Source of the DNA: Natrinema saccharevitans
GTDB taxonomy: Archaea; Halobacteriota; Halobacteria; Halobacteriales; Natrialbaceae
Length of the DNA: 64,000 nucleotides
Reading direction: 5' to 3'
NCBI RefSeq assembly: GCF_001953745.1
Contig: NZ_LWLN01000001.1
Coordinates: forward strand, 2,852,001 to 2,916,000
The notes under the pieces are model-generated. The model saw nothing but the letters and a program-made list of their open reading frames with translations. It searched no databases and had not been told where the DNA came from. This document shows, one piece after another, positions 19,918 through 43,489 of this stretch (the stretch's first letter is position 1; the number at the start of each line of letters is the position of its first letter). Made by a program: the position numbers and the translations under genes.

Positions 19918-20862
19918 CTACCGGACCGCCGCGATCAACTCGTCGACGAACCCGTCGAGGCGGTCGGGGTCGGGACCGGCCCGCGCGTGAACGTCCGGAT
20001 CGATCTCCCGCGGCGGGTGGGCAAACGCCCGACCGATGGCGTCGCCGATCCGCTCGTCGCCCTCGCCGGTCCGCTTTCGCTCGAGGAGGTCTCGAGCCCG
20101 TTCGATCCGATCGGCGTTGAAGACGGCGGGCGCTTGCTCGGTGAGGAACGACTCGAACTCGAGCGCGGGCAGGTCGTGGTCGCCGCGGTCCCCGGTTGCT
20201 TTCAGGTACCGCGCGGCCATCGCCGCCCGGGCGATCACGAGGTTGCGCTTCACCGTAGGCCTCGTCCGGGTTTCTCGAAAACGGTCGTCGTCGGCCGCGA
20301 CCGTCGTCGTCCCGTCGTCGGTCTCGACGACGTACTCGTCGTCGCACACCTCCAGAATCGGGAAGAGTTCGTCGTCGCTCCGGACCAGGTGGTGTGAGAG
20401 ATACTTCCGGTAGTTGTTCGTCGCGATACCCCGCCACGTGTGATAGAGATCCATCGGGTTGTAGGCCCGTTCGACGTACGCTCCGAGATCCGTGGGGTCG
20501 AACGCGGTTCGATAGCGGATCGGACTCCGGAGCAGATCGATCGCCCCGTCGTTGGAGTCGGCCAACAGCCGCGCGAACGTCCGCACGTCCCAGCCCTGAT
20601 ACTCGAACTCGCCGTCCGTCTCGACGATCGTCTCCGGCGGTCCCTCGAGGTGGGCGTACCGACGCAGGTCCGTCGGTACGTAGACGAACCTGACGTCGTA
20701 GTCGCTGTCGGGACCGGCCGCACCCCACGCGTGGCTGCCGTGGGCGACCGCCAGCGCGACCCAGACGTCACGGTCGCGCTCGATCGCCGTCAAGTGGTCG
20801 TCGACGGTCGCACGGATGGCTGCCGAGACGCTGGTCAGATAGTAGCCGCTGAAACGATTCAC
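19918..20862 (-). CDS. RlaP-type nucleotidyltransferase
   Basis: A DNA polymerase beta-fold nucleotidyltransferase of the RlaP (RNA repair pathway) kind. AHGSHAWGAAGPDSDYDVR (40-58) gives the GS signature with metal ligands D54 and D56, and the following helical region resembles the family to the end. The partner expected in bacterial RNA repair, an RNA ligase, is absent nearby. The first usable start in frame is a GTG at 20862 located inside the palindromic element, so the first ten residues come from repeat DNA and the real start may differ. The gene is bracketed by copies 2 and 3 of the 45-bp repeat, suggesting an accessory insertion. Confidence 0.75.
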   Translation of the reverse strand: MNRFSGYYLTSVSAAIRATVDDHLTAIERDRDVWVALAVAHGSHAWGAAGPDSDYDVRFVYVPTDLRRYAHLEGPPETIVETDGEFEYQGWDVRTFARLLADSNDGAIDLLRSPIRYRTAFDPTDLGAYVERAYNPMDLYHTWRGIATNNYRKYLSHHLVRSDDELFPILEVCDDEYVVETDDGTTTVAADDDRFRETRTRPTVKRNLVIARAAMAARYLKATGDRGDHDLPALEFESFLTEQAPAVFNADRIERARDLLERKRTGEGDERIGDAIGRAFAHPPREIDPDVHARAGPDPDRLDGFVDELIAAVR

Positions 20863-20920
20863 ACACTGATCGCAGCGCCATCGTGCGATCAGGTGTGCAA
20901 TGACTTTCAGCGGCTACTAT
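20839..20920 (-). repeat. CTATAGTAGC palindrome, copy A
   Basis: Two arms of 36-37 nt (20839-20874 and 20884-20920) around a 9-nt centre form an imperfect hairpin. Stem base variable block CGCTG pairs with CAGCG. Relative to copies B and C it lies in inverted orientation. It overlaps the 5' end of the RlaP-type gene. Confidence 0.85.
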
Positions 20921-20974
20921 AGTTGTCGCTCGACGCCGTCGAGAACGACGCCGAAGAAGACCGGGTGACGAATG

Positions 20975-21016
20975 CCCTTCGTAGCTTCACCTTGTGACCA
21001 GAAACACGTAAAGATC
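20975..21016 (+). repeat. WSQG-type 45-bp repeat, copy 3
   Basis: GTAGCTTCACCTTGTGACCA, then GAAACACGTAAAGATCG; closest to copies 1 and 2. Confidence 0.8.
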
Positions 21017-21090
21017 GAAACCCGAGCATCGCGATCGTCCGGAGGGCGTCGCGACTGCCGAACGGAACTCGCGGAGAACGGCTGCCGTCT

Positions 21091-21139
21091 TCCCGTCATA
21101 GCTCTACCTTGTGACCAGAGACGCTTAAACGAACGACGG
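21091..21139 (+). repeat. WSQG-type 45-bp repeat, copy 4
   Basis: CATAGCTCTACCTTGTGACC, then AGAGACGCTTAAACGAACGACGG in two parts; nearly identical to copy 5. Confidence 0.8.
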
Positions 21140-21206
21140 CTTTGAGGAGAGACTGCGGAGACCGGCCCCTCGTTCCGGCGGGAGGGCATCGGCCAGTCTG
21201 GGAGAG

Positions 21207-21215
21207 TTATAAAAC
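21207..21215 (+). promoter_or_regulatory. TATA box of small membrane protein gene
   Basis: GTTATAAAA 29-37 nt before the ATG at 21244; the half palindrome lies between box and start. Confidence 0.55.
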
Positions 21216-21223
21216 CGACCGTG

Positions 21224-21246
21224 CTATAGTAGCTATTGAAACGATG
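21224..21246 (+). repeat. CTATAGTAGC palindrome, half copy D
   Basis: CTATAGTAGCTATTGAAACG matches one arm (type 1) of the palindrome family; no second arm is seen. It covers the likely transcription start and the ATG of the small gene. Confidence 0.65.
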
Positions 21247-21447
21247 TCTGCGCTCCGGGCCGTACTGTTCGAGTGGGACCTGAACCGGGTGACAAGGATC
21301 GCCGTCTCCGCGTTGGCCGTCTTTCTCGCGCAACGCGTCACGGACGACTTCCTCACCGGCCTCGGTGCGACGATAGTCTTTCTCGTCGTCCTCTCGATCC
21401 CGTGGGAAGTGACAGAGCGTTTCCCAGGTCGGTCGGACGGGTCGTGA
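21244..21447 (+). CDS. Small two-helix membrane protein
   Basis: A 67-residue protein, MSALRAVLF then two hydrophobic segments (about 18-31 and 40-53) and a basic/acidic tail. I do not recognise a family. A TATA box and an ATG at leaderless distance support expression, and codon choice is GC-rich at third positions. It lies between copies 4 and 5 of the 45-bp repeat and starts in the half palindrome. Confidence 0.55.
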   Translation: MSALRAVLFEWDLNRVTRIAVSALAVFLAQRVTDDFLTGLGATIVFLVVLSIPWEVTERFPGRSDGS

Positions 21448-21500
21448 TTACCGCGGCCGGCGTCGTGACTATCGAATCAAAAACCCGGAGAACGACGACC

Positions 21501-21550
21501 TCCCGTCATAGCTCTACCTTGTGACCAGAACCACTTAAAGAAACGACGGC
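21501..21550 (+). repeat. WSQG-type 45-bp repeat, copy 5
   Basis: CATAGCTCTACCTTGTGACC, then AGAACCACTTAAAGAAACGACGG in two parts; 80 nt upstream of mptA. Confidence 0.8.
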
Positions 21551-21629
21551 TCGAGCCGCTGTTAGCGTCGGGACGCAAGCGATCCCCGGTTCCGAAAGGT
21601 TGAATCGAACGCTGCCCTGAATGCGGCCA

Positions 21630-22556
21630 ATGAGTCATCAGTTACCGGACGTGCAAGCCACGTCACCGGACGTCACCGTCGGCCTGAGTCAGGTCGGCGT
21701 CACGGGCGTCGACAAGCTCGTCAAGATCGCCCGCGAGGGGAAGCGACCGATCGTCCTCACGGCCGAGTTCGAGGTCTTCGTAGATCTCCCCGGCTGGCGT
21801 AAGGGGGCCGACATGAGCCGCAACATGGAGGTCATCGACGAGATCTTGGAGGACGCGACTCGCGAGGAGGCCTACGGCGTCGAGGAGGTCTGTGGCGAGG
21901 CCGCCGAACGGTTGCTCGAGAAACACGACTACACCTCGAAGGCGGAGGTCTCGATGGAAGCGGAGTTCATGCGCCGGGAGCAGACCCCCGCGAGCGACCG
22001 CGAGACTCAGCACACGGTCGACATCGTCGCCTCGGCGACGGCGACCGGCGAGGGGACCCGCGAGGAGATCGGCGCGACGGTCACCGGGATGACCGTCTGC
22101 CCCTGCTCGCAGGGGATGTCCGCCGCCCGCGCGAAAGAGACCCTCGAGGATTTGGGCGTCGAGGAGGGGACGATCACGGAGTTCTTAGAGGAGGTGCCAC
22201 AGCCGGGCCACTCCCAGCGAGGGCACGCGACGCTGACCGTCGAAGCGGGCGGCGATCCCGAGGTCGATCTGAACGACATCATCGACATCGCTCGTGACTC
22301 GATGAGCGCGCGGATCTACAACCTCGCGAAACGGCCCGACGAGGACCACATGACCTACGCGGCCCACGCCGACGCGAAGTTCGTCGAGGACTGCGTGCGC
22401 GCGCTGGCGGAGGGCGTCGTCGACGAGTTCGACCACCTGCCCGACGACGCGGTGATCACGATGAGCCAGTCCAACGACGAGTCGATCCACCAGCACAACG
22501 CCCACGCCGAGCGGGTCGTCAAGCTGGGGACGCTGCGCGACGAGATCGAGAGTTAG
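21630..22556 (+). CDS. mptA: GTP cyclohydrolase MptA
   Basis: A 308-residue archaeal-type GTP cyclohydrolase (FolE2/MptA, COG1469) that converts GTP to the 7,8-dihydro-D-neopterin 2',3'-cyclic phosphate for pterin cofactors. [10 protein letters not shown] is the family start; an ATG 9 nt upstream in frame is less likely. The CPCSQ motif at about residue 155 holds the conserved Cys; the enzyme is metal-dependent. [13 protein letters not shown] near 230 is conserved too. Its stop overlaps the convergent trmB-like gene by 4 nt. Confidence 0.95.
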
Positions 22557-23356
22557 AACTCGAGCGGCTCGGCCTCCTCCCACCGCGGGACGAACTCCTC
22601 GTGGACGTTCGCGGCGAACTCCGGGTCCTTCAGATCGATCATGGCGAAGGCCTCGCCCGAGGACAGCGGGTTGGGCACCTGAATGCAGACCTCGACGCCG
22701 TCGATGATGTTGAACGAGCCCGTGATGTCGTTGTTTGTGCGAACGTCGAAGTCCTCGCGTTGCTGCAAGGTCTCCCGGTAGCGCCGCCCCACCTCCTCCG
22801 ACATCGAACCGACCATCTCCCGAGTCATCAGCAGGTCGATCGACACCCCGCGATCGAGGGCGTCCTCGAGCTGGGCGTTGATCTCCTCGCTGGCGGCCTG
22901 CATGTCCCACTGGGGCGACGGGTGAGACGAGACCATCACGATGTCACGGTCGGCGGCCGCCAACCGCTCTAAGAGCAGGTCCTTCGTCTCCTCGGGGCCG
23001 ACCGCGGCGGTCCAGAACTGCTCCTCGACGGGTTCGGCCGCGTCGAGTTCGTCCGCCAGATCGTCGACGATCGATTCGTACTGGTCGGCCTTTTCCTCGA
23101 GTTCGCGTTTCTTGTCCTCGAGGAGACGATCCAGCGCCGTCGAGGGCTCGACGGCGACGTACTTCTTCGGCCGGCTGGCGGTCTGGCTGCGGACGAGGTT
23201 GTACTGTTCGATACTGTTCAACACGTCGTAGATCCGCCCCATCGGGACGTCGCTCGCCCGGGACAACTCTTTGGCCGTTGTGGGGCCGGTGTTGAGCAGC
23301 GATCGGTAGGCTCGAGCTTCGTACTCGGAGAGCCCGAGGTCCCTGAGACTGGCCAT
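22553..23356 (-). CDS. TrmB family transcription regulator
   Basis: A 267-residue TrmB-type regulator. The N-terminal winged helix ([19 protein letters not shown], then [23 protein letters not shown]-like to about residue 70) is followed by a coiled coil (about 85-110) and a PLD-like C-terminal effector domain ([23 protein letters not shown]). Such proteins control sugar or central metabolism genes in archaea. I chose the ATG at 23356; a TTG 12 nt upstream is in frame. The effector cannot be told from sequence and no sugar transporter is adjacent. Confidence 0.9.
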
Positions 23357-23438
23357 GTCCGAGAGCAACCCGCTGAAGAAATATAAACACTGTGGTAGTT
23401 TGGCGTTTCGACGGCGTCGGCCGCGAGGGGGCCGAGCG

Positions 23439-25085
23439 TCAGTCGAGAAGCCGCTGGACCGCGTCGCTCAACTCGGCGGGAGTTTCGGCAGTAGCTGACA
23501 CGGCCTCGCCCAGGTCGGCCCGCGCCGTCCCCGACTCGCGGTCGGCGTCGGGGACGACCACCTTCTCGTGGTCGGCCATCCGCAGGGCCGCCCGATGGAG
23601 GTCGGAGCCTGCGTCGGCACCGACCCGGATCACCAGCGGGCCCTCGAGCAGTCGGGAGGCCGCCGTCGCGTACCCGGCGATCTGGACGCCGAAGCGGTCG
23701 CTGGCCCCCGCAAAGGCCTCGAGCGTTTCTCGGGCGTACTCGCGGTAGCGGTCCTCGCCGGACAGCGCCGCCAGATCGATCAGCGCGTCCGCAAAGGCGA
23801 CGTTGGCGTCCAGAGGCCGCAGCGGGCGATCGCAGAGTCCGACCCCGTCCGCGGGGCCGTCGAGGAACGAGTCCCCGTCGTGGAGCCGCTCGATCGTCGC
23901 GTCGGCGATCGCCGTCGCGTCCGCCAGCGCGTCCGTCTCGAGGGTACTGGCGACCGTCGTCAGGGCCGCTAACGCGCGGGCCTGATTGGTGAGCAGGGGG
24001 AGCGCCTCGCTGCCCTCGTCACGGTCGATCGTGTCTTCGCGTGCGTGTGCGACGACGCCGTCAGCGAGCAGGTCCGTCCGGAGGGTCTCGAGGGCGCGCT
24101 CGGCGTACCGGCGGGCCCGCTCGTCGTCGGTGTAGGCGTAGTAGGTCAGCAGGCCGTCGATGGCCAGCGCGTTCGGCCCGGCGAAGACCCCCGGATCGAC
24201 CGGCGGTTCGTCGGCGGCCGCGCGATCGGTCGCGTCGAGGCTGTGGGCGTCGGCGTCGCCCGGGGACTGGCTGTTGGCGAAGGCGTCGACCGCGTCGTTC
24301 CACAGCGTCGTCGTCAGGTAATCGATGGTGTCGGCGGCGGGCTCGCGGTACTCGTCTCTCCCGGTCAGCAGGTAGGCGTTGGCGAAGGCCCGGACCAACG
24401 CGCCGTTGGAGTCGAGCAGCTTCTCGCGCTGGAGCCCCGACCAGTCCCGGTCGGTCGCGAACCGGTAGAAGCCGCCGTCGTACTCGTCTAACAGGTTCGC
24501 GCTGACCGCGTCGTAGGACCGCAGAGCCATCTCGCGGTCGCGTTTGAGCGCGAACTCGAGGGCGTCGGGCAGGGGGAACTTCGGGCTCTGGCCCCAGCCG
24601 CCGGCGGTCTCGTCGTAGGTGTCGGTGAGGTGGCCGAGCATCCCCTGTTCGATCTCGGCGGTTAGCTCGCCGGCCGGCGGGTTGTCCTCCCGAAGCGGTC
24701 GGGGAACGCGGGCGGCACCGCTTCCTTTCGTCTCCCACATGGTCCGAACGCTGTCCAAGACCTGACGCATCCCGTCGGGGCCGAGATAGCCCGCGCCGGT
24801 CAGGACCTCGCCGTTCGGGGCGAGAAAGACCGTCGAGGGAAAGCCGCCCATGTTGTACCGGTCGCGGACCCGCGGGTACCGATCGACGTCGACCCGGACG
24901 GGGACGAAACTGTCGTTGAGGTTGGCCGCGATCCGGGGCTCGGCGTAGGTTTCCTCGTCCATCTCGTGGCAGTGGTCACACCACGTCGCGGTCAGCGAGA
25001 GCAAGACGGGGCGGTCGGCCTCGGCGGCCTCGTCGAAGGCCGCCTGTCCCCACTCGCGCCACTCGACGCGGGTCGTATCGTCCAT
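23439..25085 (-). CDS. DUF255 thioredoxin-domain protein (YyaL/spermatogenesis-associated 20 type)
   Basis: A 548-residue cytoplasmic protein. The N-terminal thioredoxin fold carries C36-D-H-C39 in LTATWCDHCHEMDEETY, then GGFPSTVFLAPNGEV, and the large C-terminal part is an (alpha/alpha)6-barrel-like region with GGWGQSPKFPLP near 180 and GGFYRFATDRDW near 230. Family members are usually 600-700 residues, so this one is on the short side. Activity is unknown; a redox-linked sugar-epimerase-like enzyme has been proposed for the fold. The ATG at 25085 follows directly on a short intergenic gap. Confidence 0.9.
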   Translation of the reverse strand: MDDTTRVEWREWGQAAFDEAAEADRPVLLSLTATWCDHCHEMDEETYAEPRIAANLNDSFVPVRVDVDRYPRVRDRYNMGGFPSTVFLAPNGEVLTGAGYLGPDGMRQVLDSVRTMWETKGSGAARVPRPLREDNPPAGELTAEIEQGMLGHLTDTYDETAGGWGQSPKFPLPDALEFALKRDREMALRSYDAVSANLLDEYDGGFYRFATDRDWSGLQREKLLDSNGALVRAFANAYLLTGRDEYREPAADTIDYLTTTLWNDAVDAFANSQSPGDADAHSLDATDRAAADEPPVDPGVFAGPNALAIDGLLTYYAYTDDERARRYAERALETLRTDLLADGVVAHAREDTIDRDEGSEALPLLTNQARALAALTTVASTLETDALADATAIADATIERLHDGDSFLDGPADGVGLCDRPLRPLDANVAFADALIDLAALSGEDRYREYARETLEAFAGASDRFGVQIAGYATAASRLLEGPLVIRVGADAGSDLHRAALRMADHEKVVVPDADRESGTARADLGEAVSATAETPAELSDAVQRLLD

Positions 25086-25212
25086 ACCGGAGCGACGGGA
25101 GTCGCGGGCGTAAGCCCTTCGTTCGCGTCTCCCAGTCGGCTCGACGGCGGCCGCGATTCGGTTCCCGAACCGAGAGTAAAAGATTTTCACTCGTCGGCGG
25201 CTAGATCGCGGT

Positions 25213-25803
25213 ATGCTCCGGTGGATCTTCGCGCTGTTGCTCATCCCGTTTCTCGACGCCGTGTTGCTCGCGGTGATCGTCACCCAGTTCGACGCGCTCA
25301 GTTGGGTCGGGATGATACTGCTCGTCGTCCTGACCGGCCTCGTCGGGATGCTCCTCGTCCGCGCCGAAGGCCGGCGGACGATCCGGAAGATGCAACGGTC
25401 GATGGCCCAGGGACAGCCCCCGACCAACGAACTGCTCGACGGGGGCCTGCTGATCGCCGCCGGAGCCTTTCTGCTGACCCCCGGACTGGTGACCGACCTG
25501 CTCGGGTTCCTGCTGGCCGTCCCGCTGACCCGGGTCCCGATCAGAATGGCGCTCAAACGCTACGTGGTCGTCCCCTACGCGGACAAGAAGACCGGCGGGT
25601 TCGCCAGCGGCGGGGTCTGGACGTTCGGCTTCCCCGACGAGGACCCGACTCGAGACACCGCCGACTCGAACGACGGCGGGACCTACGACCTCGGTGAGGA
25701 CGCCTACAGCGTCGACGACGAAGACGCCTACACGATCGACTTCGAGGACGAGCGATCGGACGACGGCGACGACGACCGGGACGACGACCCCCTCGCTCGG
25801 TAG
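25213..25803 (+). CDS. fxsA: FxsA family membrane protein
   Basis: A 196-residue protein with the FxsA core: two or three membrane segments (residues about 3-20, 28-48, 75-95), LVRAEGRRTIRKMQ between them and GGLLIAAGAFLLTPGLVTD. The C-terminal third is highly acidic and likely cytoplasmic. In E. coli FxsA over-production relieves F-exclusion of phage T7; the normal role is unknown. It precedes the tRNA-Ile gene that hosts an integrated element. Confidence 0.85.
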   Translation: MLRWIFALLLIPFLDAVLLAVIVTQFDALSWVGMILLVVLTGLVGMLLVRAEGRRTIRKMQRSMAQGQPPTNELLDGGLLIAAGAFLLTPGLVTDLLGFLLAVPLTRVPIRMALKRYVVVPYADKKTGGFASGGVWTFGFPDEDPTRDTADSNDGGTYDLGEDAYSVDDEDAYTIDFEDERSDDGDDDRDDDPLAR

Positions 25804-25878
25804 CGGTTCGCACGGGTCGCGGAGAAAGAAACGCTTAAACGTACCACCGAGCAACTATCGAGTGCGAAGGACGGGCGC

Positions 25879-25952
25879 GGGCCAATAGCTCAATTAGGTT
25901 GAGCGCCACTCTGATAAGGTGGAGGCTCTCGGTTCAAATCCGAGTTGGCCCA
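25879..25952 (+). tRNA. tRNA-Ile (GAT)
   Basis: Cloverleaf with acceptor GGGCCAA/TTGGCCC, D arm GCTCAATTAGGTTGAGC, anticodon stem CCACT/GGTGG with loop CTGATAA (anticodon GAT), T arm CTCGGTTCAAATCCGAG and discriminator A. Its 3' 14 bases are repeated at 30486-30499. Confidence 0.95.
25939..25952 (+). repeat. Attachment site repeat (tRNA side)
   Basis: TCCGAGTTGGCCCA forming the T-stem/acceptor end of tRNA-Ile; partner copy at 30486. Confidence 0.8.
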
Positions 25953-26111
25953 CTCAGCTTCTGAACGCTTCTTAGACACCCGATAACGCCAGGTTTAGCG
26001 CCCAACAGTTCCGTTCACGGCGTTCGAGGAAACGGGTGCCCCCTCGATTTCGCCGCTTAGTTGAATCACTTCTGAACGCGGGTCGCCTCCGTCTTGGGAT
26101 TCCGATTAGCC

Positions 26112-26855
26112 GGCACTGTCTAGTTGAGCCAGTTTGAGAAGTGAGCAGGTCGTACTGTTGAGTTGGTTGATGCTCGCAGACCTGCTCAGCGAGAGTTATG
26201 AGACGGATTTAGAAGAATCTTGGGAGAACGAGCGGACGGCGACGCCCGTCAGGGCGTTCGCCGTCCGCCTCCATCAGACCGGTTGTTCGCTTCGAGAGAC
26301 AACAACGATTCTCGCTGAATTAGGCGTTCAACGCTCTCACGGGGCGGTTTGGAACTGGGTTCATCGGCTAGCTGACAGCGGACGCGACCCGCCTGAGGCG
26401 CAGCCGAAGCGGGTCGCCGTTGACGAAACCGCTGTCAAGATTAACGGCGAGTGGTCTTGGTTATACGCTGCAATAGACACCGAGACAAAGTTGATTCTCG
26501 ATGTTGCGTTATTTGGGCGGCATGGCACCGATCCGGCGGCTGCGTTTCTCCATCGACTCACCGAGAAACACGATCTCTCGGATGCTGAGTTTCTCGTGGA
26601 TCAATTCAGCTATCGGACTGCCCTTGCTCGATTAGGATTGAGCGGTCAGGTCAACTATACCGACCGAAACCTCATCGAAAAGTGGTTTCACACCCTCAAA
26701 ATGCGTATCGACCGCTTCCATAACTCGTGGGTGGGCAGTCGGTCGAGCGTCCGCGAGTGTCTTGAACAGTTCATGCATTACTACAATCATCAGAGACCGC
26801 ATCAAGCTCTCGATGGAAAGACGCCGATTGAGAAGGTTCAGAACTATACAGTGCC
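26112..26855 (+). mobile_element. IS6-family insertion sequence
   Basis: Terminal inverted repeats GGCACTGTCTAGTTG (26112-26126) and its near complement ending at 26855 (GGCACTGTATAGTTC read inward) enclose the transposase gene. No 8-bp target duplication is visible (GATTAGCC left, AGTGGACC right), so an adjacent deletion or recombination has occurred. Confidence 0.75.
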
Positions 26856-26889
26856 AGTGGACCTATTGAGTCGTTTCAACGCCAAGTGA
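26170..26889 (+). CDS. IS6 family transposase
   Basis: A 239-residue DDE transposase of the haloarchaeal IS6 type. An N-terminal helix-turn-helix region (LHQTGCSLRETTTILAELG, 35-53) is followed by the catalytic residues D85 (VAVDETAVK), D144 (FLVDQFS) and E170 (NLIEKWF), all intact. YYNHQRPHQALDGKTPIE near the end is typical. I chose ATG 26170 (MLADLLSESY); a TTG at 26134 is possible. The reading frame runs 34 bases past the right terminal repeat, so the last residues come from flanking DNA. Confidence 0.9.
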   Translation: MLADLLSESYETDLEESWENERTATPVRAFAVRLHQTGCSLRETTTILAELGVQRSHGAVWNWVHRLADSGRDPPEAQPKRVAVDETAVKINGEWSWLYAAIDTETKLILDVALFGRHGTDPAAAFLHRLTEKHDLSDAEFLVDQFSYRTALARLGLSGQVNYTDRNLIEKWFHTLKMRIDRFHNSWVGSRSSVRECLEQFMHYYNHQRPHQALDGKTPIEKVQNYTVPVDLLSRFNAK

Positions 26890-26990
26890 CTCATCGGAAC
26901 CGATGATCGGGTTGTATGTTCCCGTCTTTCGTACCGATTGTCAAATAGCGTACCTCAAAGTACGATACTCTGAAGTATGGTTATGGGAAG

Positions 26991-27000
26991 TATTATATTT
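26991..27000 (+). promoter_or_regulatory. TATA box of the DUF234-type ATPase gene
   Basis: TATTATATTT 22-31 nt before the ATG at 27022; this favours that start over the in-frame ATG at 26977 lying before the box. Confidence 0.6.
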
Positions 27001-27021
27001 GGCACTGCCGTATCGGAGACT

Positions 27022-28413: not shown

Positions 28414-28653
28414 CTGCAAGTGTCGTCGAATTAACTACTCCACGAGACGATCACCTCTCTAAATACCCTCGCTGCTGTTCCAGTATCGTTTTCTCGCTCC
28501 GCTTGCGTGGTGAATTTCGAGAGCTTCGGTACTGACGCTCACCGGCTGCTGACGATGACCAGGGGGCTATCTTAGATGAGATTGCGGTTGAGCCACACCG
28601 TTTTCCAGAGACGGCTGACTTCCTAAGTGCGATGGGGGGGACCAAGGACCCGT

Positions 28654-29310: not shown

Positions 29311-29382
29311 AAACGAATTAACGCAGGTGCAGCGGTAACTTGAGAAGCGATCCGGCTAATAAATCGGAGAGGGGTAACTCGA

Positions 29383-30499: not shown

Positions 30500-31512
30500 T
30501 ACTTTTGCGGCGAGTACCCTCGCGAGCCACGGCTCCGGAAGTCGACTCGTCGCCTTCTCCCCACGGACTAACACTACTGGACAGCAGTCGATACGCCGCC
30601 GGTCGCGAATTCGCAGTCGTTTCCACCGGTGACGACCGCACGCGGCGACCGGCGTCACGTGGTTCTGGCCGGCGGTCGCGAGCCACACGGATCGACTGCC
30701 ACAGTCCGCATCTCGAGGCGACGGGCCGTGAGCCAGCGGGCGGTTCAGCTGGAGCCGATCGACAGCAGTGGCTGTTCAAAGAGTCAGCACACCTTACGCG
30801 AACGCGACGATCCACGGTCGGTCCTCGATACCCGCCGCACGGTCGGCCGCGTTCTCGAGAGCGCGTCGGCACATCGGCCCGTTTCGGCAACCGGCCGATC
30901 CCGAGACGGAGCTGATACTCAGTCCAAAGCAGATGAGGGAGGGTAGAAATACCAGATTCATATACAAATACGAAAATATAGATTAGATAAAGTGTAGTAG
31001 TCCCTACACCTCATACATAGAGATGGATCCGTGTCTATTATGGCCCAAACGCGCGGGATCCACCGAAAAGAGGAAACTGTTCTCAAAGTAGATTGGATAT
31101 CATCAGTGAACGATAGCGACTATAGTAGACACGATATAAGGCTATTTTAGACCAATAATCGACGTTCTTGGCGATGAATAGAACGCAGGAGGGCGGTAGT
31201 ACACGAATCCTGATTAGATTCAGATATAGTCGAATTTCTAGTATGTTCGGGGCGGTCGATGAATCGTCGGAACCGAGTCGGTAGATGCCATCAGTCCCTG
31301 CACCGGTCCGGGACCGACACGATGCGGTACGGCGAACGCACGCGGGTATCGCTCGGTGCTGGAGAAACGATCGGTAGCTCCCGTCCGACAGCCGGTTTCG
31401 GATCCGCCACGATTCGCCGATTCGGTACTCGCGGATGGCGGTCCTCCCGTCGAACGGGCGGGCCGATGGACCCAGCCGAGGGTTTATACGATATCCCGCG
31501 GCCAAGCGGGGT
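30500..31512. other. Gene-poor stretch beyond the integrated element
   Basis: About 1 kb with no gene I can support. The first 440 nt are GC-rich with many overlapping frames on both strands but no family or start signals; 30,930-31,250 is strikingly AT-rich with no clear palindrome. It may be old flanking DNA of the tRNA-Ile site. Confidence 0.5.
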
Positions 31513-34046: not shown

Positions 34047-34141
34047 CGGATACTGGGACGGAGATGCTGGCAAGCGGGACACTCGTTTCCGGAGTCGATG
34101 CGGTTCGGTCGAGGGAATCCCAGCCGGAGCGAAACCGGTGG

Positions 34142-34227
34142 CTATAGTAGCTCTTGAGAGTCAATGCACACCCGATCGCAGGACAGCGTTGTGATCGGTG
34201 TGTAAATCGTTTCAAGAGCTACTATAG
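34142..34227 (+). repeat. CTATAGTAGC palindrome, copy B
   Basis: Arms 34142-34180 and 34190-34227 around GGACAGCGT; ends are perfect CTATAGTAGC/GCTACTATAG. The variable block TCTTG pairs with CAAGA. It lies 130 nt upstream of the IclR start and 50 nt downstream of the dehydrogenase stop. Confidence 0.9.
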
Positions 34228-34275
34228 GACGGTGCGCAAAAGGAGCAGAAGAGAACGAGAGTCGTCGACGCGGCG

Positions 34276-35439: not shown

Positions 35440-35755
35440 ACCTAGACCTACGGGAATGGCACAATAGGTATTGCGATACCGCTTGTCACGTGAACGAACG
35501 TCGAACAACGGAGAGTCAGCACGTTCGACGGACAGCGGCCCATGGAATCAGCGTACCAAGATCCGCTCGAACGGCTGCTCGTGTTGGCGGCAGCCATGTC
35601 GAAGGCGCTGTCAAGAGGGTCAACAGATCGACAACTCCGTCGAACCGAATCAGTGTCTTTTTCGGGATTTAGCTCTCGACCTACACAGTGCGGTAGTTGT
35701 TTTGCACACGGGCAAATTACAGACGAAAATGACGGCCCGGTGATTGGCTCATATC

Positions 35756-35767
35756 GTTATACTTAAG
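35756..35767 (+). promoter_or_regulatory. TATA box of the TAXI-TRAP operon
   Basis: CGTTATACTTAA 26-37 nt before the ATG at 35793. The remaining 300 nt between it and the divergent dehydrogenase gene hold nothing else recognisable. Confidence 0.6.
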
Positions 35768-35792
35768 AGCAGATACTATAACGGTGTATACC

Positions 35793-36848
35793 ATGGTAGA
35801 CGACAGCAACCAAATTGGTAACCGCACGAATCGTCGAACGTTCCTCGCCGCTGGACTCGGCACCACAGCCGCACTCGCGGGCTGTCTCGACTCTCTCGAC
35901 GAGGGGGTCGGTGGTGGCAGTGGCGATGATTCACAGCTCACGATCGTCACGGCGGAATCGGAAACGGGAACCTACGCGGCCAGTCAGGGGATCGCCGCGA
36001 CGGTTGACGAGAACGCCGACGATCTCGACGTGGAGGCACAGCCGAGTCAGGGTACCGAAGACAACATCGGTCGACTCGGCCGCGGAGAGGCCGATATCGG
36101 GATGATCCAGCATCGATCGGCTCGGAAGATCCTGAACGGCAACGAGCCCTACGGATCCCTCGACTACACCCCTAATCAGATCTTCCACTACAACGACCTC
36201 CCGTGGTTGTTCGTGACCAACAACGACTGGACGTCGATCGCCGATATCGAATCCGGTGCCCGGGTGTCCCCGACGCCGGGTGAGTCGGGTACCCGAGAGA
36301 CGCTTACCGAGGCGCTTGGCACCGTTACCGATGACTACGAGCAGATAAGCGTCAGCTACGGCGAGCAGGCCGGGGCGATGCAGGAGGGCCAACTCGACGT
36401 CGGCGTCGTGACGATCTCGAACTTCGACTTCGAGGCCTCCTGGATTCAAGAGATGAAACAGACCGTCGACACCCGTGTCCTCGAGTGGCCCGACGACGCC
36501 GTCGACGAACTCGAGAGCAACGCCGGCGTCCCGATGGAGCCGATCGACATGACCCGGGACAGCTTGAGTGGGTACGCACACGCCCCTGACGAGGCGATGG
36601 GAGTTAACATTCCGTACAACTTCGTCGTGCGTAACGATCACGAGTACGACTACATCTACAGCTTCCTCGAGACGATGTACGAGTACCGCGAGTCGATGAA
36701 AGAAGACCATCCGTACCTCGGGTACTACATGGAGGACGAGTGGTGGACGACGCGGATGTACGACGACTTCCCGTTCCACCCGGCCGCGGCCGACTTCTAC
36801 GAGGAGAAGGGACTGTGGTCCGACGACTTCGTTCGCGGTGAGGAATAG
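35793..36848 (+). CDS. TAXI family TRAP transporter solute-binding lipoprotein
   Basis: A 351-residue substrate-binding protein. A Tat signal NRRTFLAAGLGTTAALAGC ends in a lipobox Cys at about residue 28, so the protein is a membrane-anchored lipoprotein outside the cell. The mature part has the TAXI pattern: IVTAESETGTYAASQGIAATV, QGTEDNIGRLGRGEADIGMIQ, and IADIESGARVSPTPGESGTRETLTEAL. The fused TRAP permease follows after 12 nt. TAXI systems take up organic acids or glutamate-like solutes; the substrate here is unknown, a dicarboxylate or aromatic acid being likely from context. Confidence 0.9.
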   Translation: MVDDSNQIGNRTNRRTFLAAGLGTTAALAGCLDSLDEGVGGGSGDDSQLTIVTAESETGTYAASQGIAATVDENADDLDVEAQPSQGTEDNIGRLGRGEADIGMIQHRSARKILNGNEPYGSLDYTPNQIFHYNDLPWLFVTNNDWTSIADIESGARVSPTPGESGTRETLTEALGTVTDDYEQISVSYGEQAGAMQEGQLDVGVVTISNFDFEASWIQEMKQTVDTRVLEWPDDAVDELESNAGVPMEPIDMTRDSLSGYAHAPDEAMGVNIPYNFVVRNDHEYDYIYSFLETMYEYRESMKEDHPYLGYYMEDEWWTTRMYDDFPFHPAAADFYEEKGLWSDDFVRGEE

Positions 36849-36860
36849 CGAGAACACACC

Positions 36861-39011
36861 ATGAGTGCTGCTACACCTCGAGATCGGATTCGGGATACCC
36901 TCCCGTCGCCGCGTGAACTCAGCGTCGTCGATGTCCTTACCGGACTCATCTATCTCTTCGGCGTCGCGCTGACGGTCCTGACGATCGATTACGCGCGGAC
37001 GCTTCGGTTCCCGGAGCCGATGGTATACGCGAACATCTTTCTTGGAATCGGGTTGGCCCTCTATTATTTGATGCAGGCCAAAGAGTATCTCGTTGCGGAA
37101 CCGTTTACGGGACGCATCTCGAACACGATCGTTCCCGACTCGCCGGCGGTCCGTCGCAACGGCGCCCGACTCCTCGCAGTGATCGCCGTCGCGATCGCGA
37201 TCGCATCGCTGCTCGTGACCGGGTACGTGCATTTCAACTTCGGCAGACTCCAATCCGCCTACACGGTCGGGTACACGACGCTGGATATCCTCGTCGGCTT
37301 GGGTATCATCCTCATTTTGACCGACGCAACGCGTCGAGCGTTCGGCTACATCTTTACGTCCGTCATCGTGTTCTCGCTCGTGTACGCGTTCGTCGGCCCA
37401 CTGCTACCCGGCATCTTCAACCATAGCGGCATGAGCATTGCCCGGATCTCCCGCGAGGGTGCCATTGGGCTGATGGGGACGTACAGCTTCATCCTGCGTA
37501 TCGGCTCGACCTGGGTAGCGATCTTCATCATGTTCGCCGGCATTGCGAAGGCCTACGGGGCGCTCGACTACGTACTCGATGTCGGCCGGGAAATGGGGAC
37601 GAGCCTCCGAACCGGCGTCGTCCAGATCGCCGTCGTCGCCAGCATGATCATGGGATCGATCACCGGCAGCGCCGCAGCGAACACGGCGACGACCGGCTCC
37701 TTTACCATCCCGATGATCAAAGATCAAGGCATCCGCAAGGACTTCGCGGCCGCCATCGAGGCCGTCGCCTCGAGCGGCGGACAGATGCTCCCGCCGGTGA
37801 TGGGCGTGGCGGCGTTCCTGATGGCCGACATCCTCAACGTCTCCTATCTGACGATCATCCGCGCCGGGATCATTCCCGCGGCGCTGTTCTATCTCAGCGT
37901 CGGAGTCGCCGTCTACCTCCTCGTATTGAAGTTCGGCTGGACGACCGACGAGATCCAACCGTTCGACTACACCGTCCTACTGGGCGGACTGCACTTTGTG
38001 ATCCCGCTTGCCGTCCTGATGTACACGCTCGTCATCCTTCGGTTCACGCCGCTGGCGGCGGGATTGTATACGATTATTACCATCGTCGGCGTGATGTACG
38101 TCCGGAACGTCCTCGTCGACGTCCTTGACGTCGGAGTCTCGAACGGCTCTCTCGAGGCCAACACTGACGCTGTGTCGCTCGGCGATATCGGCTGGAGCGT
38201 TCTTGGAACGACCAAGCAGACGCTCGACGGCTTCAAGCAGGGCGGCGTGGAGATGGCACCACTGGTCGGCATTCTGGGCTCGCTCGGAATCATCTTGCGG
38301 ATGGTCGAGGGTACCGGTCTCGCGGGCGCGATCAGCCAGCAGATGGTGTCTCTCGCTGGCGGAGTCCTCTTCTTCTTGCTCGTGATGGCCATGATCTCGA
38401 GCATCCTCTTTGGGCTCGGCATGCCGACGCCGGCGGCGTACATCCTCGTCGCCATGCTGATTGTCCCGAGCGTCATCGCCGTCGGTATTCCGCCGATCAC
38501 TGCTCACATGTTCGTGTTCTACTTCGCGATGCTGTCGGCGATTACGCCGCCGGTCGCAGTCTCCGTCGCGATCGGTTCGAGCATCGCCGACTCGAGTTTT
38601 CCCCGGTCGTGCGTGCAGGCGCTTCGGATCGGCGCACCCGGCTTCGTGATCCCCTTTGCGTTCATCACGAACAACAGCCTCATTTACTGGTCGATCCCCG
38701 AAACGATCATTGCGCTTCCACTCGTGCTGGCAGGGACGACGGCACTGGTCGTCGTGACCGTCGGATTCGACGGCGCACACTGGCTGTCCGTTCCAGCTCG
38801 AGTACTCTATCTCGTCGCCGCCCTCGCCGCGATGTTCGGTGGAGCATTCATCGCCCCGCTACTGACCACGACTCCGACAATCGATCTTGGAATCCAACTC
38901 GTCGGCGGACTCGCGATCTTCGCCGGACTCGGGTACGCGAACCTCGTTGCCGGCTACGACCACGAGGCGGCACTGGAGCGGACCAAGTCGTCCTCGCCAC
39001 AGGGCGACTAG
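36861..39011 (+). CDS. TRAP transporter fused permease (small plus large subunits)
   Basis: A 716-residue membrane protein with about 16-18 helices that joins the 4-helix small and 12-helix large TRAP subunits. MIMGSITGSAAANTATTGSFTIPMIKDQG (about 253-281) and the second copy-like LGMPTPAAYILVAMLIVPSVIAVGI (about 515-540) are the signature turns of the elevator domain. It uses an ion gradient to move the solute delivered by the TAXI binding protein. Together with that gene it forms an operon; a hairpin lies 37 nt after the stop. Confidence 0.95.
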   Translation: MSAATPRDRIRDTLPSPRELSVVDVLTGLIYLFGVALTVLTIDYARTLRFPEPMVYANIFLGIGLALYYLMQAKEYLVAEPFTGRISNTIVPDSPAVRRNGARLLAVIAVAIAIASLLVTGYVHFNFGRLQSAYTVGYTTLDILVGLGIILILTDATRRAFGYIFTSVIVFSLVYAFVGPLLPGIFNHSGMSIARISREGAIGLMGTYSFILRIGSTWVAIFIMFAGIAKAYGALDYVLDVGREMGTSLRTGVVQIAVVASMIMGSITGSAAANTATTGSFTIPMIKDQGIRKDFAAAIEAVASSGGQMLPPVMGVAAFLMADILNVSYLTIIRAGIIPAALFYLSVGVAVYLLVLKFGWTTDEIQPFDYTVLLGGLHFVIPLAVLMYTLVILRFTPLAAGLYTIITIVGVMYVRNVLVDVLDVGVSNGSLEANTDAVSLGDIGWSVLGTTKQTLDGFKQGGVEMAPLVGILGSLGIILRMVEGTGLAGAISQQMVSLAGGVLFFLLVMAMISSILFGLGMPTPAAYILVAMLIVPSVIAVGIPPITAHMFVFYFAMLSAITPPVAVSVAIGSSIADSSFPRSCVQALRIGAPGFVIPFAFITNNSLIYWSIPETIIALPLVLAGTTALVVVTVGFDGAHWLSVPARVLYLVAALAAMFGGAFIAPLLTTTPTIDLGIQLVGGLAIFAGLGYANLVAGYDHEAALERTKSSSPQGD

Positions 39012-39047
39012 CCGATTCCGACGCCGTTTCACACGGGTCCGTCATTG

Positions 39048-39103
39048 CCGGCGCAACCGCGACCCGGGCGGCGGTTGCACCGGGAACCCTACAGCAATCC
39101 GGA
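39048..39103 (+). repeat. GCGGTTGCACCGG hairpin, copy 2
   Basis: Left arm CCGGCGCAACCGC (39048-39060), 10-nt loop, right arm GCGGTTGCACCGG (39071-39083); one C-A mismatch. Tail TACAGCAATCCGGAT follows. Position suits a terminator but lacks a T run. Confidence 0.8.
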
Positions 39104-39185
39104 TCGCTCGGCGCTCGAGACAACCGAAATAAATCGGCTCGCCGAGTGACAACCCTTTTGCGACCCGGGTAACCATACACAAGGT

Positions 39186-40754
39186 ATGACAAACCTCGTG
39201 ACGGAGGTCGTAGAGACCGTCGATGCGAACCCGGAATCGCCCGCGATCGCGTACGAAGGGACCGAACTGAGCTACGCCGAGTTCTGGGAGCGGGCCGGAC
39301 AGTTCGCACAGGCCCTCGAGAACCGCGGCATCGGCGAGGGCGACCGCGTCGGTATCTACCTGCCGAACCTGCCGCAGTTCGTCACGGCCTTCTACGGCAC
39401 CCTGCGTGCCGGCGGAATCATCGTCCCGATGAACCCCCAGTACAAGGCCCGTGAGATCAGTCACATGCTCGGCGACAGCGAGGCCAAGGCCGTCGTCGCG
39501 CTCGCCGATCTGGTTCCCAACGTCCTCGAGGTCCGGGACGACACGGACGTCGAACAGGTCGTCAGCGTCGGGGCCGACGTCGACGGCGCGACCGAGTTCG
39601 ACGACTTCCTCGCCGAGGACACCAAAGCCGTCGTCGACCGCGACGACGACGACGTCGCGGTCCAGCCGTACACGTCCGGGACGACGGGCACGCCGAAGGG
39701 CGTCCTCCTGACTCATCACAACCTCGCCTTTACGACGCGGGCCAACGCCGTCATCCCGCCGGGCGGCTTTCAGGCCTCCGACCGGCTCATCGGGACGCTC
39801 CCGCTGTTCCACATCTACGGCATGTCCGTCGTCATGAACGGTGCGATGTACAGCGGCGGCACCTACCACCCGGTGCCGAAGTGGGACGCCACCGAGGTGA
39901 TGGACCAGCTCGAGGACGACGAGATCACCGTCATGTTCGCCGTCCCCGCGATGTTCAACGACATGATCAACCACCCCGAGGCCGAGCGCTACGAGTTCGA
40001 ATCCCTGCGCTTTGCCAACTCCGGCGGCTCGAGTCTCCCGCTGGAGGTCTTAGAGCGGTTCGAGGAGCTGTGGGGCGTCCAGCTCAACGAGGGGTACGGC
40101 CTGACCGAGACGAGCCCGGTCACCCACGCCAACACCAACGAGAACCGCCGGAAGGGCAGCATCGGCCAGCCCCTCGAGGGCGTCGAGGCGAAGATCGTCG
40201 ACGACGACTTCGAGACGGTCCCCCGCGTCGAGGAGGGACCGATCGACGAGGAAGAGGCCGACCTGCGTGACGTCACCGGCGAACTCGTCATCCACGGCCC
40301 TAACGTGATGAAGGAGTACTACGGCCTGCCGGAGGCCAACGAGGAGGCCTTCACCCACGAGGACGGCAAGCGCTGGTTCCACACCGGCGACATCGGCTAC
40401 TGGGACGAGGACGACTTCTTCTACGTCGTCGACCGCGAGAAGCACATGATCGTCACGGGCGGCTACAACGTCTATCCGCGCGAAGTCGAGGAACTCCTCT
40501 TCGAGCATCCGGACGTCGCCGACGCCGCCGTCGTCGGGGTGCCGGACGAGCGCCGCGGCGAGACCGTGAAGGCGTTCGTCGTGACGACGCCCGACGCCGA
40601 GGTGACGCCGGAAGAAATCAAGCAGTACTGCCTCGAGAACCTCGCGGAGTACAAACACCCCCGCGAGGTCGAGTTCGTCCAGGAACTACCCCGTACCACG
40701 ACCGGAAAGGTCCAGAAGTTCGAACTCCGCGGCGAGGACGAGAGCGAGCAGTAG
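39186..40754 (+). CDS. AMP-dependent acyl-CoA synthetase/ligase
   Basis: A 522-residue ANL-superfamily enzyme that activates a carboxylic acid with ATP and CoA. The P-loop PYTSGTTGTPKG is at 161-172, GYGLTETSP near 310, the TGDIGYWDEDDFFYVVDREKHMI hinge near 405-425 and TTGKVQKFELR with the catalytic Lys near 513. It resembles medium/long-chain ligases. The neighbours (TRAP transporter, acyl-CoA dehydrogenases, thiolase) suggest it activates the imported acid. Substrate unknown. A possible TATA element (CCCTTTTGC) lies about 30 nt upstream. Confidence 0.9.
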   Translation: MTNLVTEVVETVDANPESPAIAYEGTELSYAEFWERAGQFAQALENRGIGEGDRVGIYLPNLPQFVTAFYGTLRAGGIIVPMNPQYKAREISHMLGDSEAKAVVALADLVPNVLEVRDDTDVEQVVSVGADVDGATEFDDFLAEDTKAVVDRDDDDVAVQPYTSGTTGTPKGVLLTHHNLAFTTRANAVIPPGGFQASDRLIGTLPLFHIYGMSVVMNGAMYSGGTYHPVPKWDATEVMDQLEDDEITVMFAVPAMFNDMINHPEAERYEFESLRFANSGGSSLPLEVLERFEELWGVQLNEGYGLTETSPVTHANTNENRRKGSIGQPLEGVEAKIVDDDFETVPRVEEGPIDEEEADLRDVTGELVIHGPNVMKEYYGLPEANEEAFTHEDGKRWFHTGDIGYWDEDDFFYVVDREKHMIVTGGYNVYPREVEELLFEHPDVADAAVVGVPDERRGETVKAFVVTTPDAEVTPEEIKQYCLENLAEYKHPREVEFVQELPRTTTGKVQKFELRGEDESEQ

Positions 40755-40883
40755 ACGGTCGAGTCGCGCCTCGACTACCGGCATCGGTTTCCATCTCGAC
40801 CCGCGGTCCGGCGATCGAGTTACCAAAACCAACCGGGGAATACATCCGAAGCTACTTTGTAAGACGACCCCAAGCAACCTATT

Positions 40884-42023
40884 ATGACGTTCCAGCTGTC
40901 AGACGAGCACGAAGCGATCCGCGAGGCCGTCCGCGAGTTCGGAGAAAACGAGATGAAGCCGGTCGCCGAGGAACACGACCAGGAGGGGAAATATCCCGAG
41001 GAGCTCCGCAAGAAAGCCGCCGAATACGACTTCGTCGCGCCGAACATCCCGCTCGAGTACGACGGGGCCGGGATGGACAAGATCTCCTCGACGATCGTTA
41101 CCGAGGAACTCTGGCGCGCCGACCCCGGGATCGGGAGCGCCGTCGGCTCGGCCGGCTTCGGGACGGACATGATCATCGAGTTCGGTGACGAGTGGATGAA
41201 AGAGGAGTGGCTGCCCCAGATCGCCAACGGCGAGACCGCCTCCTGTTCGATGATCTCCGAGCCCGCCCACGGCTCGAACGTCGCCGGCATCGAAACGGTC
41301 GCCGAGAAGGACGGCGACGAGTACGTCCTCAACGGCAACAAGATGTGGATCACCAACGGAACCGTCGCCGACGTCGGCGTCTGTATGGCCAAGACCAGCC
41401 CCGGCGAGGGCCACAAGGGCATCACCGCATTCCTCGTCGAGATGGACCGCGACGGCGTCTCGACCGACAAGATCGACAACAAGCTCGGGATCCGCGCCTC
41501 GGACCTCGCCGAGGTCGTCATCGACGACGTCCGCATCCCCGAGGACAACGTCATCGGCGAGGTCGACAAGGGCTTCTACCAGCTGATGGAGTTCTTCGCC
41601 TCCGGCCGCACCAGCGTCGCCGCTCAGGCGGTCGGCGCCGCACAGGGCGCGCTCGACGCCGCCATCGAGTACGCCAACCAGCGCGAGCAGTTCGACCAGA
41701 AGATCTCGGACTTCCAGGCCATCCAGCACAAGATCGCCGAGATGGCCACCAAGGTCGAGGCCGCCCGTTCGCTGACCTACCGCGCTGCGACCCAGGTCGA
41801 GCAGGAGAATCAGGACATCGCCGCGCAGTACTCGAGCATGGCGAAGTACTTCGCCTCCGAAATCTCGGTCGAAGTCGCCGACGAGGGCATTCAGGTCCAC
41901 GGCGGCTCGGGCTACGTCACGGACTACCCCGCCGAGCGCTACTACCGCGACGCCCGCATCACGAAGATCTACGAGGGCACCAGCGAGATCCAGAAGAACA
42001 TCATCGCCGACCAGATCCTCTAG
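40884..42023 (+). CDS. Acyl-CoA dehydrogenase
   Basis: A 379-residue acyl-CoA dehydrogenase of the short/branched-chain type. The N-terminal helical domain, CSMISEPAHGSNVAG and KMWITNGTVADVGV middle strands, and the C-terminal helices with IQVHGGSGYVTDYPAERYYRDARITKIYEGTSEIQ are all regular; E364 in YEGTSE is the expected base. FAD and ETF dependent. It follows the ligase gene on the same strand after 130 nt. Unlike the divergent gcdH-like gene it has the usual TSE rather than THD signature. Confidence 0.9.
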   Translation: MTFQLSDEHEAIREAVREFGENEMKPVAEEHDQEGKYPEELRKKAAEYDFVAPNIPLEYDGAGMDKISSTIVTEELWRADPGIGSAVGSAGFGTDMIIEFGDEWMKEEWLPQIANGETASCSMISEPAHGSNVAGIETVAEKDGDEYVLNGNKMWITNGTVADVGVCMAKTSPGEGHKGITAFLVEMDRDGVSTDKIDNKLGIRASDLAEVVIDDVRIPEDNVIGEVDKGFYQLMEFFASGRTSVAAQAVGAAQGALDAAIEYANQREQFDQKISDFQAIQHKIAEMATKVEAARSLTYRAATQVEQENQDIAAQYSSMAKYFASEISVEVADEGIQVHGGSGYVTDYPAERYYRDARITKIYEGTSEIQKNIIADQIL

Positions 42024-42057
42024 ACCGGTCCGACGATCGCGGCTTCGACCGCGGATC

Positions 42058-42071
42058 CACGCTGTTTTTTC
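42058..42071 (+). terminator. T-rich terminator after acyl-CoA dehydrogenase gene
   Basis: A run of six T (42065-42070) 40 nt after the stop, preceded by a GC-rich stretch; haloarchaeal terminators are often such T runs. Weak evidence. Confidence 0.35.
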
Positions 42072-42186
42072 GCGGTGTTTGCCGACCGCCGAGACAACCG
42101 TCTAACGGCTCTCGAGGACGATTAGCCGGTGGAAACGAAATCCGATCAGAACCGGTGAACGGCCGGTCGCGAACGGAGCGGCGTCG

Positions 42187-43329
42187 CTACTGCTCGGGCA
42201 CGCGGAACTCGACGGCCGCGCCCTGGCCGTAGCCGACGCACATCGTCGAGAGCCCCAGCCCGCCGCCGCGGCGCTGGAGTTCGTGAATCAGCGTGACCGG
42301 GAGGCGCGCACCGGAAGCTCCCAGCGGGTGGCCGATGGCGATCGCGCCGCCGTTGACGTTGAACCGGTCGTCGTCGAAGCCGAGTTCGTCCCGGCAGTAG
42401 ATCGTCTGGCTCGCGAACGCCTCGTTGAGTTCCACGAGGTCGTAGTCGTCGGCCGACCGGCCGTTGCGCTCCCAGATCCCCCGCACCGCGGGGACCGGGC
42501 CGATCCCCATGATCGTCGGATCGACGCCCGCGACGTTGTGGTCCTCGATTTCGGCCATGATCTCGAGGCCCTCACGCTCGGCGAACTCCTTGCTCGTGAT
42601 GAGGACGCCGGCGGCGCCGTCGGAGACCTGCGAGGCGTTGGCGGCGGTGACGGTGCCGTCTTCCTCGAAGGCGGGCGACAGACCGGCGATCTTCTCTTTG
42701 GTCGTGCCGGGACGGAGACCCTCGTCCTCGGTGATCGTGCCGTCCTCGGTTTCGATCGGGACGATCTCCGCGTCGAACGTGCCCGCCTCGGTCGCCTCGA
42801 CCGCGCGCTGCTGGCTCCGGGAACCGTACTCGTCTTGCTGGTCCCGGCTGATGTCGAACTCCTCAGCGACCTTCTCGGCGGTCTGGCCCATCGCGAGCCC
42901 GGCCGCGTCGTACTGCTCTGCGATGCCGTCGTAGGAGTCGATCCCCTTCCGGCGCTCGTTGCGGGACATGTTCTCGACGCCGCCGGCGACGATCACGTCG
43001 CGCTGGCCCGCCCGGACGGCGTCGCTTGCGCTCATGATCGCCTCCGCCGAGGAGGCACAGAGCCGGTCGATCGTGGTGCCGGGAACCCCTTCGCCCAGTT
43101 CCGACAGGAGGGCGATCACCCGCGCGATGTTGTTGCTCTGCTCGTTGACCTGCTTGGCACACCCCCACCGGATATCGTCGACGTCCTCGCCGGTAAGGCC
43201 CGTCCGCTCGAGCATCTCGTCGACGAGCGGTACCGACAGCTCCTCGCTGCCGGTCTCGGCGAAGACGCCACCGTGTTTCCCCTGCGGAGTTCTGACTGCC
43301 TGCACGACGACTGGCTGGCGATCGCTCAT
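42187..43329 (-). CDS. Acetyl-CoA acyltransferase (thiolase)
   Basis: A 380-residue thiolase. The nucleophile Cys91 lies in [21 protein letters not shown] at 117-123, the His of [15 protein letters not shown] near 335-350, and the second Cys in [10 protein letters not shown] near the end. It splits 3-ketoacyl-CoA (or acetoacetyl-CoA) with CoA to give acetyl-CoA, or works in the synthetic direction. ATG at 43329. It is convergent with the acyl-CoA dehydrogenase gene and likely serves the same catabolic set. Chain length preference cannot be read. Confidence 0.95.
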
Positions 43330-43407
43330 TGGTAACTGTTCCCTCTCGCTACAGCGGTAAAGACGCACCGTTCTCGCCGCATCGGCGGCCTGAACGGCGA
43401 ACCGGTA

Positions 43408-43489
43408 AGTAGCAACTGAAAGTCATTGCACACCTGCTCGCACAACAGCGTTGCGATCAGTATGTCAATCGTTGCAGTTGCTACTATAG
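43408..43489 (+). repeat. CTATAGTAGC palindrome, copy C
   Basis: Arms 43408-43442 and 43451-43489 around ACAACAGC. Left end lacks the first CTAT. Variable block AACTG pairs with CAGTT. Located 79 nt upstream of the thiolase start. Confidence 0.85.

Follow-up and report, generated by a model that had tools for sequence, protein, structure and literature searches.

The subject of this analysis is a palindromic repeat of the haloarchaeon Natrinema saccharevitans, present as three copies and a fragment in a 64,000-nucleotide stretch of its genome (assembly GCF_001953745.1, contig NZ_LWLN01000001.1, positions 2,852,001 to 2,916,000), referred to below as the window. A preliminary description, made from the letters alone, had reported four copies, A to D, and all four proved to be present. 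Copy A spans 20837-20922 on the minus strand (core 20840-20919; CCGCTG/CAGCGG subfamily; covariance-model match at C1:2872837-2872922, C1 and C2 being contigs of this genome). It is reversed relative to copies B and C, as described. Copy B (34142-34227, plus strand; core 34145-34224) belongs to the CTCTTG/CAAGAG subfamily and is bounded by TA duplications at 34143-34144 and 34225-34226. Copy C (43405-43489, plus strand; CAACTG/CAGTTG; match at C1:2895405-2895489) is old and has a degenerate left end, and copy D (21224-21245, plus strand) is a 22-bp remnant of one end. The extents of A, B and C include the target base and TA. The paired changes between copies, CGCTG/CAGCG, TCTTG/CAAGA and AACTG/CAGTT, had been read correctly. 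Allowing at most one mismatch, the window holds seven occurrences of the end motif CTATAGTAGC, where shuffles predict 0.43. Two of the seven, overlapping near-matches with one on each strand, lie outside any copy at 31116-31129.

Copy A meets the open reading frame (ORF) of an RlaP-type nucleotidyltransferase (19918-20862, minus strand; PF10127, E=1.2e-29), whose presumed ancestral ATG is the target site of the copy. The site is empty in two congeners, where it reads CTAT and its ATG shares the reading frame of the RlaP ORF; relatives have CT ATG AC, and N. saccharevitans has CTG at the corresponding in-frame codon. On this evidence, copy A probably inserted on the predicted start codon of the RlaP gene. 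It is flanked by a TA duplication, one of whose two TAs has since mutated to TC. Copy B lies about 130 bp upstream of an IclR gene and also 48 bp beyond the stop of an acyl-CoA dehydrogenase gene, copy C lies 36 to 75 bp upstream of a thiolase gene, depending on the start codon chosen, and the orthologous site in genome G006 lacks copy D and reads GTGCTAGC. A position upstream of or over a gene start, claimed for all four copies, holds for A and D, is shared with a gene end for B, and is not a preference genome-wide.

Empty orthologous sites define the boundary of the element. From 16 copies of this genome, 82 bp were cut out and the joined flanks were searched against 28 congeners and the genome itself. 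The best spanning matches gave 20 orthologous sites for 13 copies, leaving three queried copies without a site (C2:104729, C1:895147 and copy B, for which no empty site was found among the matches listed). At 19 of the 20 sites, representing 12 of the 13 copies, the element is absent and the flanks, save for small gaps, are continuous through one 4-bp site; the twentieth, the counterpart of copy C in G006, is likewise occupied by an old copy. Fifteen of the empty sites read NTAN (CTAG 8, CTAT 3, CTAC 2, TTAG 1, GTAG 1), and four have diverged to CTGG, CCAG, CCAA and CCTG. Three further locus-to-locus comparisons agree with duplication of TA. The net insertion is 82 bp, and the empty sites show that the element is an 80-bp core, TAGTAGC...GCTACTA, with TA duplicated and CTAG preferred. 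This corrects the ends of the palindrome first given as about 85 bp, since the outer CTA and TAG are the target base plus the duplicated TA and lie outside the core. End statistics come from 111 of 119 copies that were read out of 120 places, which remained of the 131 described below after 11 weak ones had been set aside; the outer base is C in 78% and G in 80%, and the TA letters are conserved in 93-99%. The insertion at C1:1499293 is recent, since the surroundings of the site are 98% identical to those of a relative that lacks the copy.

Genome mining shows that the element is abundant. A covariance model built from 17 copies found at least 131 distinct places in this genome: all 150 scored candidates matched, 19 of them as a second match to a place already counted from the other strand, and 131 is a lower bound because no scored candidate failed. 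Two pairs of places on contig C2 may represent one repeated contig end. The same copies and flanks stand near both ends of C2 (C2:1-6648 and C2:405965-413064, offset about 406,415), as either a terminal repeat or a redundancy of circular assembly. Among 40 places scored by BLAST, 18 (counting copy B itself) share at least 98% identity with copy B. With stricter filters than in the own-genome search, all 24 congeners searched were positive, with 2 to at least 109 matches each, and 16 genomes from other families searched beside them gave none. A wider, even sample of the class, also filtered more strictly, was positive in 95 of 242 genomes (this one included) and 33 of 74 genera, other families among them. 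Hosts named among the matches listed include Natrinema, Natronorubrum, Natronococcus, Natronolimnohabitans, Halobiforma, Haloarcula, Halomicrobium and Halostella. The element also matched 42 plasmid records; a BLAST search of phage records and an exact-pattern search of viral contigs found no match. In N. limicola and N. innermongolicus some copies seem to stand in tandem (loci L159 and L042; L182, L199 and L200); these were rejected, as the N between the copies makes assembly gaps likely.

The element is thus short, without coding capacity, bounded by terminal inverted repeats, present in many copies and flanked by a TA target duplication. It is very probably a miniature inverted-repeat transposable element (MITE) of the IS630/Tc1-mariner type. 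TA duplication is typical of IS630/Tc1-mariner elements according to one report (PMC2170065), and the title of a paper cited there (Tenzen and Ohtsubo 1991) states that IS630 transposes to TA within 5'-CTAG-3'. As the empty sites show, the 80-bp core TAGTAGCnnnTGAAA...TTTCAnnnGCTACTA inserts into TA, preferably within CTAG, and duplicates the TA. Movement would be by cut and paste, as in the IS630/Tc1-mariner family. A transposase like that of ISNpe3 probably supplies the activity in trans, as similar ends, target and duplication suggest.

The ends of this MITE are related to those of autonomous IS630 elements. The best 60 plasmid records for a congener's IS630 transposase are all haloarchaeal, and two of them are named, ISNpe3 and ISNamo16. 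IS630 copies in congeners measure about 1.06 kb, encode proteins that match NF033545 and DDE_3, and mostly carry TATAGTA at both ends inside CTATAG, ends from which their TA duplication is deduced. ISNpe3 itself has TATAGTA-type ends flanked by TA. Consensus comparisons beyond the terminal box gave 15 of 23 identical columns between the left arm of the MITE and the right inverted repeat (IRR) of the insertion sequence (IS) (shuffle p 0.00025), and 13 of 23 between the right arm and the left inverted repeat (IRL) (p 0.003); one IRL row was out of register by two bases and one IRR row by one. This arrangement suggests fused IS ends that diverged later, and on sequence likeness the MITE probably derives from an ISNpe3-like element. 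More distantly, three IS630 relatives from Halorubrum, Haloarcula and Halococcus (42-45% identity) had no TATAGTA in the stretch examined, and a fourth, from Natribaculum breve (44.9%), has it.

Several observations weigh against an IS630-type mobiliser of this kind. The match to ISNpe3-type ends is partial, and the crossed comparison of the right arm with IRR is not nil (11 of 23, p 0.023); the other crossed comparison gives 9 of 23 (p 0.11). In the N. saccharevitans genome, searches for an IS630 transposase gave no PF13358 match and 24 weak NF033545 matches (top score 18.7 bits, cut-off 100), and the IS-end pattern gave none; the genome nevertheless holds very similar MITE copies. Across 25 genomes, MITE and IS-end counts are uncorrelated (rho 0.065, p 0.76, with MITE tallies running up to at least 109), and no autonomous element bearing exactly the MITE arms was seen. 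The mobiliser may have disappeared, may be present only at times, or may be a different enzyme altogether. Such an enzyme, for example a TA-specific transposase of another family or one encoded by the host, could move a MITE or an element like the small mobile repeats (SMRs) of Haloquadratum. The failure to detect an IS630 transposase here and the lack of correlation both favour it, as do seven genomes with at least 40 copies and zero IS ends at one mismatch (G000, this genome, and G002, G006, G008, G010, G016 and G020; the DDE_3 search covered all of these except G016 and G020, and G002 has one partial match). The SMRs themselves, at 80-110 bp, reportedly have no known mobiliser (PMC3119063). 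The CTAG target, the TA duplication and the likeness of the arms to IRL and IRR nonetheless indicate ends of the ISNpe3 type, and an IS can disappear once its MITE has spread, so a different enzyme appears unlikely. One candidate parent element, a segment of about 7.15 kb at C1:1128187-1135429 with CTATAGTAGCTCTTGA on both outer sides, was rejected because it is another transposon inside a copy. This transposon (locus L139) has ends GAGGGTGTCATAG..., lies within an 86-bp copy with a 7-bp duplication, CTTGAAA, and carries ORFs that look by eye like a transposase and a recombinase.

Gene context was read with a simple gene caller of our own for 109 copies. Tandem genes flank 50 of them, convergent genes 30 and divergent genes 29, compared with 81, 30 and 36 copy-free gaps in the same loci; the apparent excess between convergent genes is mild. 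Their neighbours are 108 gene starts (median distance 149 bp) and 110 gene ends (median 72 bp). The 31 CTAG sites of the window outside the copies comprise 22 between genes, five in stop codons and four within 47.8 kb of genes. Over all loci from this genome, a set weighted towards the neighbourhood of copies, the figures are 86 intergenic, 12 in stop codons and 26 genic. Because CTAG is scarce within genes, the target largely explains where copies lie, and selection against broken genes adds to it. Surviving insertions are accordingly found in intergenic DNA or exactly on stop codons.

Stop codons are indeed a recurrent landing site. When both sides of 119 copies were tested, a gene end ran into the copy in 34 cases, and in 19 of these, involving 17 copies, restoring the site places the native stop on the target. 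These native stops are TAG in 17 cases (13 restored as CTAG) and TAA in two. Read through the element, the frame becomes TAT AGT AGC NNN TGA, and 17 of the 19 genes now end at that TGA. The element end therefore provides a new in-frame stop four codons on, and such insertions may for that reason be tolerated. At C1:3076320 and C1:752088 the copy landed on the stops of two convergent genes simultaneously. Empty relatives of stop-landing copies read CTAG for C2:185421, C1:884946 and C1:3076320, and CTGG for C1:1499293. Among the other 15 gene ends, two reach another stop within a codon and six within 2-14 codons, six remain open with a weak coding signal, and one gene is probably interrupted.

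The paired changes between the arms were examined in 206 distinct copies of exactly 86 bp, drawn from 236 distinct copies. Pairs 11:76, 12:75, 13:74 and 32:56 each show several Watson-Crick types, and the predicted hairpin is strong (mean -44 kcal/mol). Of the 206 copies, 111 have a mirrored 3-base spacer, compared with a mean of 33 and a maximum of 48 in shuffles that ignore relatedness. The symmetrical blocks of this spacer are CGC, TCT, CAC, AAC and CAG; asymmetric combinations are CAC/AAC (31 of 206) and CAT/AAT (8 of 206). In IS630 elements, whose ends lie about 1 kb apart, the corresponding spacer is mirrored in none of 10, which suggests that the closeness of the arms plays a part. In 154 nearest-neighbour comparisons, which ignore the tree, 290 changes are one-sided and 12 mirrored, with about 1.6 mirrored expected by coincidence; four more cells differ on both sides without both being Watson-Crick. 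Mirrored changes are thus several times commoner than chance, and resident copies accumulate changes largely irrespective of pairing. The inference of hairpin selection drawn earlier from the paired changes is not supported by this count, even though covariation exceeds shuffling.

Template switching offers another route to mirrored arms. According to a published account (PMC8604942), homogenised arms and inverted spacers are signatures of this process. The loop is inverted in three of the 206 copies, and at C2:357336 the right arm mirrors the left even at positions unpaired in the consensus. This homogenised pattern has its sole exact match in 29 genomes there, and the opposite arm conversion has no exact match in the same genomes. 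Because inverted loops and the homogenised copy match these signatures, the covariation can be read as template switching followed by amplification of source copies. Mirrored stem blocks are therefore probably due to mutation and spread of the palindrome and not to a regulatory hairpin. They mark subfamilies, which would have arisen by occasional switching between arms, after which symmetrical versions were amplified. As a separate observation, a copy without its left end lies 1.4 kb from the homogenised one, at about 2920-2980 of locus L123 (C2:355836-360317), inside a TrmB/HTH regulator gene that appears broken by eye.

Three findings speak against this account of the stem. Symmetry is not required for spread, as the asymmetric CAC/AAC subfamily shows; changes appear to be slightly rarer at paired positions (0.032 per site) than at unpaired ones (0.043 per site); and the excess of mirrored changes (12, with about 1.6 expected) might also stem from selection for pairing among source elements. 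Such selection in source copies could operate beside template switching. The analysis carries a caution: covariation in the stem of a repeat family does not by itself imply a selected RNA structure, for palindromes can mirror mutations through template switching. The ends of IS630 are a natural control for this.

A structured RNA leader or attenuator, with its hairpin selected at gene 5' ends, would account for the strong predicted fold, the covarying pairs and the position of copy A on a presumed start codon. Copies nevertheless adjoin gene 3' ends as often as 5' ends (110 against 108 neighbours), the insertion is polymorphic between congeners, decay is one-sided, and the neighbouring genes in the window are unrelated. 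An Rfam gathering scan of the window returned no family except three tRNAs. This explanation, offered in the preliminary description, is consequently very improbable. A protein-binding operator spread by conservation of its site, also proposed there, would fit palindromic, intergenic, multicopy sequences, yet it is still less credible, as copies of 86 bp are 98-100% identical at many sites and carry TA duplications, and the empty orthologous sites largely refute it.

The third earlier proposal, a mobile palindrome moved by a transposase encoded elsewhere, fared better: empty sites and TA duplication establish mobility, and the transposase is deduced. The family is mobile, its paired changes are real, and its copies in this genome have no 5' bias. 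Plain MITE insertion with random arms had been set against hairpin selection; the empty sites reveal MITE insertion with TA duplication, but the arms are not random. A broader and tentative proposal, rather doubtful as a whole, is that the arms co-evolve in a class-wide archaeal MITE. DNA polymerase would repeatedly re-template the hairpin, each lineage amplifying a new symmetrical "barcode". The ends would be arranged so that landing on a CTAG stop costs only a four-residue Tyr-Ser-Ser-X-stop extension, allowing gene ends to be colonised with little harm.

The window holds one further motif, near CTTGTGACCAGANACNCNTAAA, at 19682-19703, 19878-19899, 20991-21012, 21108-21129 and 21518-21539 (at most two mismatches; none in 100 shuffles). 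The five occurrences lie around and upstream of folE2 (21651-22553). Two of them fall in the segment 20930-21460, which is matched in all 29 genomes searched, mostly at the motif-bearing parts. The motif is a candidate operator and, as a guess, could belong to a metal regulon.

A boundary, a target, a duplication and a likely mobiliser can now be given for a repeat that is abundant in Natrinema and many other haloarchaeal genera. No specific description of it turned up in the literature collection that was searched. Its closest bacterial counterpart is RUP, the repeat unit of pneumococcus, for which the published text gives about 107 bp, 108 intergenic copies, IS630-like ends and a TA target (PMC2229807). 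On that text, RUP with IS630-Spn1 resembles this MITE in being short, intergenic and repeated, with IS630-type ends and a TA target. Unlike RUP, the present element is archaeal, with an 80-bp core, a full-length palindrome with co-varying arms, a preference for CTAG, landing on stop codons, and a parent IS that was not found in its own genome. By the title of its description, IS630 of Shigella shares the TA within 5'-CTAG-3', but it is an autonomous bacterial element. Like the MITE, ISNpe3 (Natrinema pellirubrum) and ISNamo16 have haloarchaeal hosts and TATAGTA ends bordered by TA, and their inner ends match those of the MITE in part; they differ in their length of about 1.06 kb, their transposase genes and an end spacer that is not mirrored.

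Among archaeal repeats, the SMRs of Haloquadratum walsbyi come nearest: their description (PMC3119063) presents geneless, multicopy elements with inverted terminal repeats, without target duplication and with ends unlike the transposons there, SMR-A targeting IS605/PATE palindromes. The present MITE differs from them in its TA duplication and IS630-like ends. Elements derived from PATE or IS605 have neither terminal inverted repeats nor target duplication, and this MITE has both. In kind, RUP and the Haloquadratum SMRs stand nearest to it.

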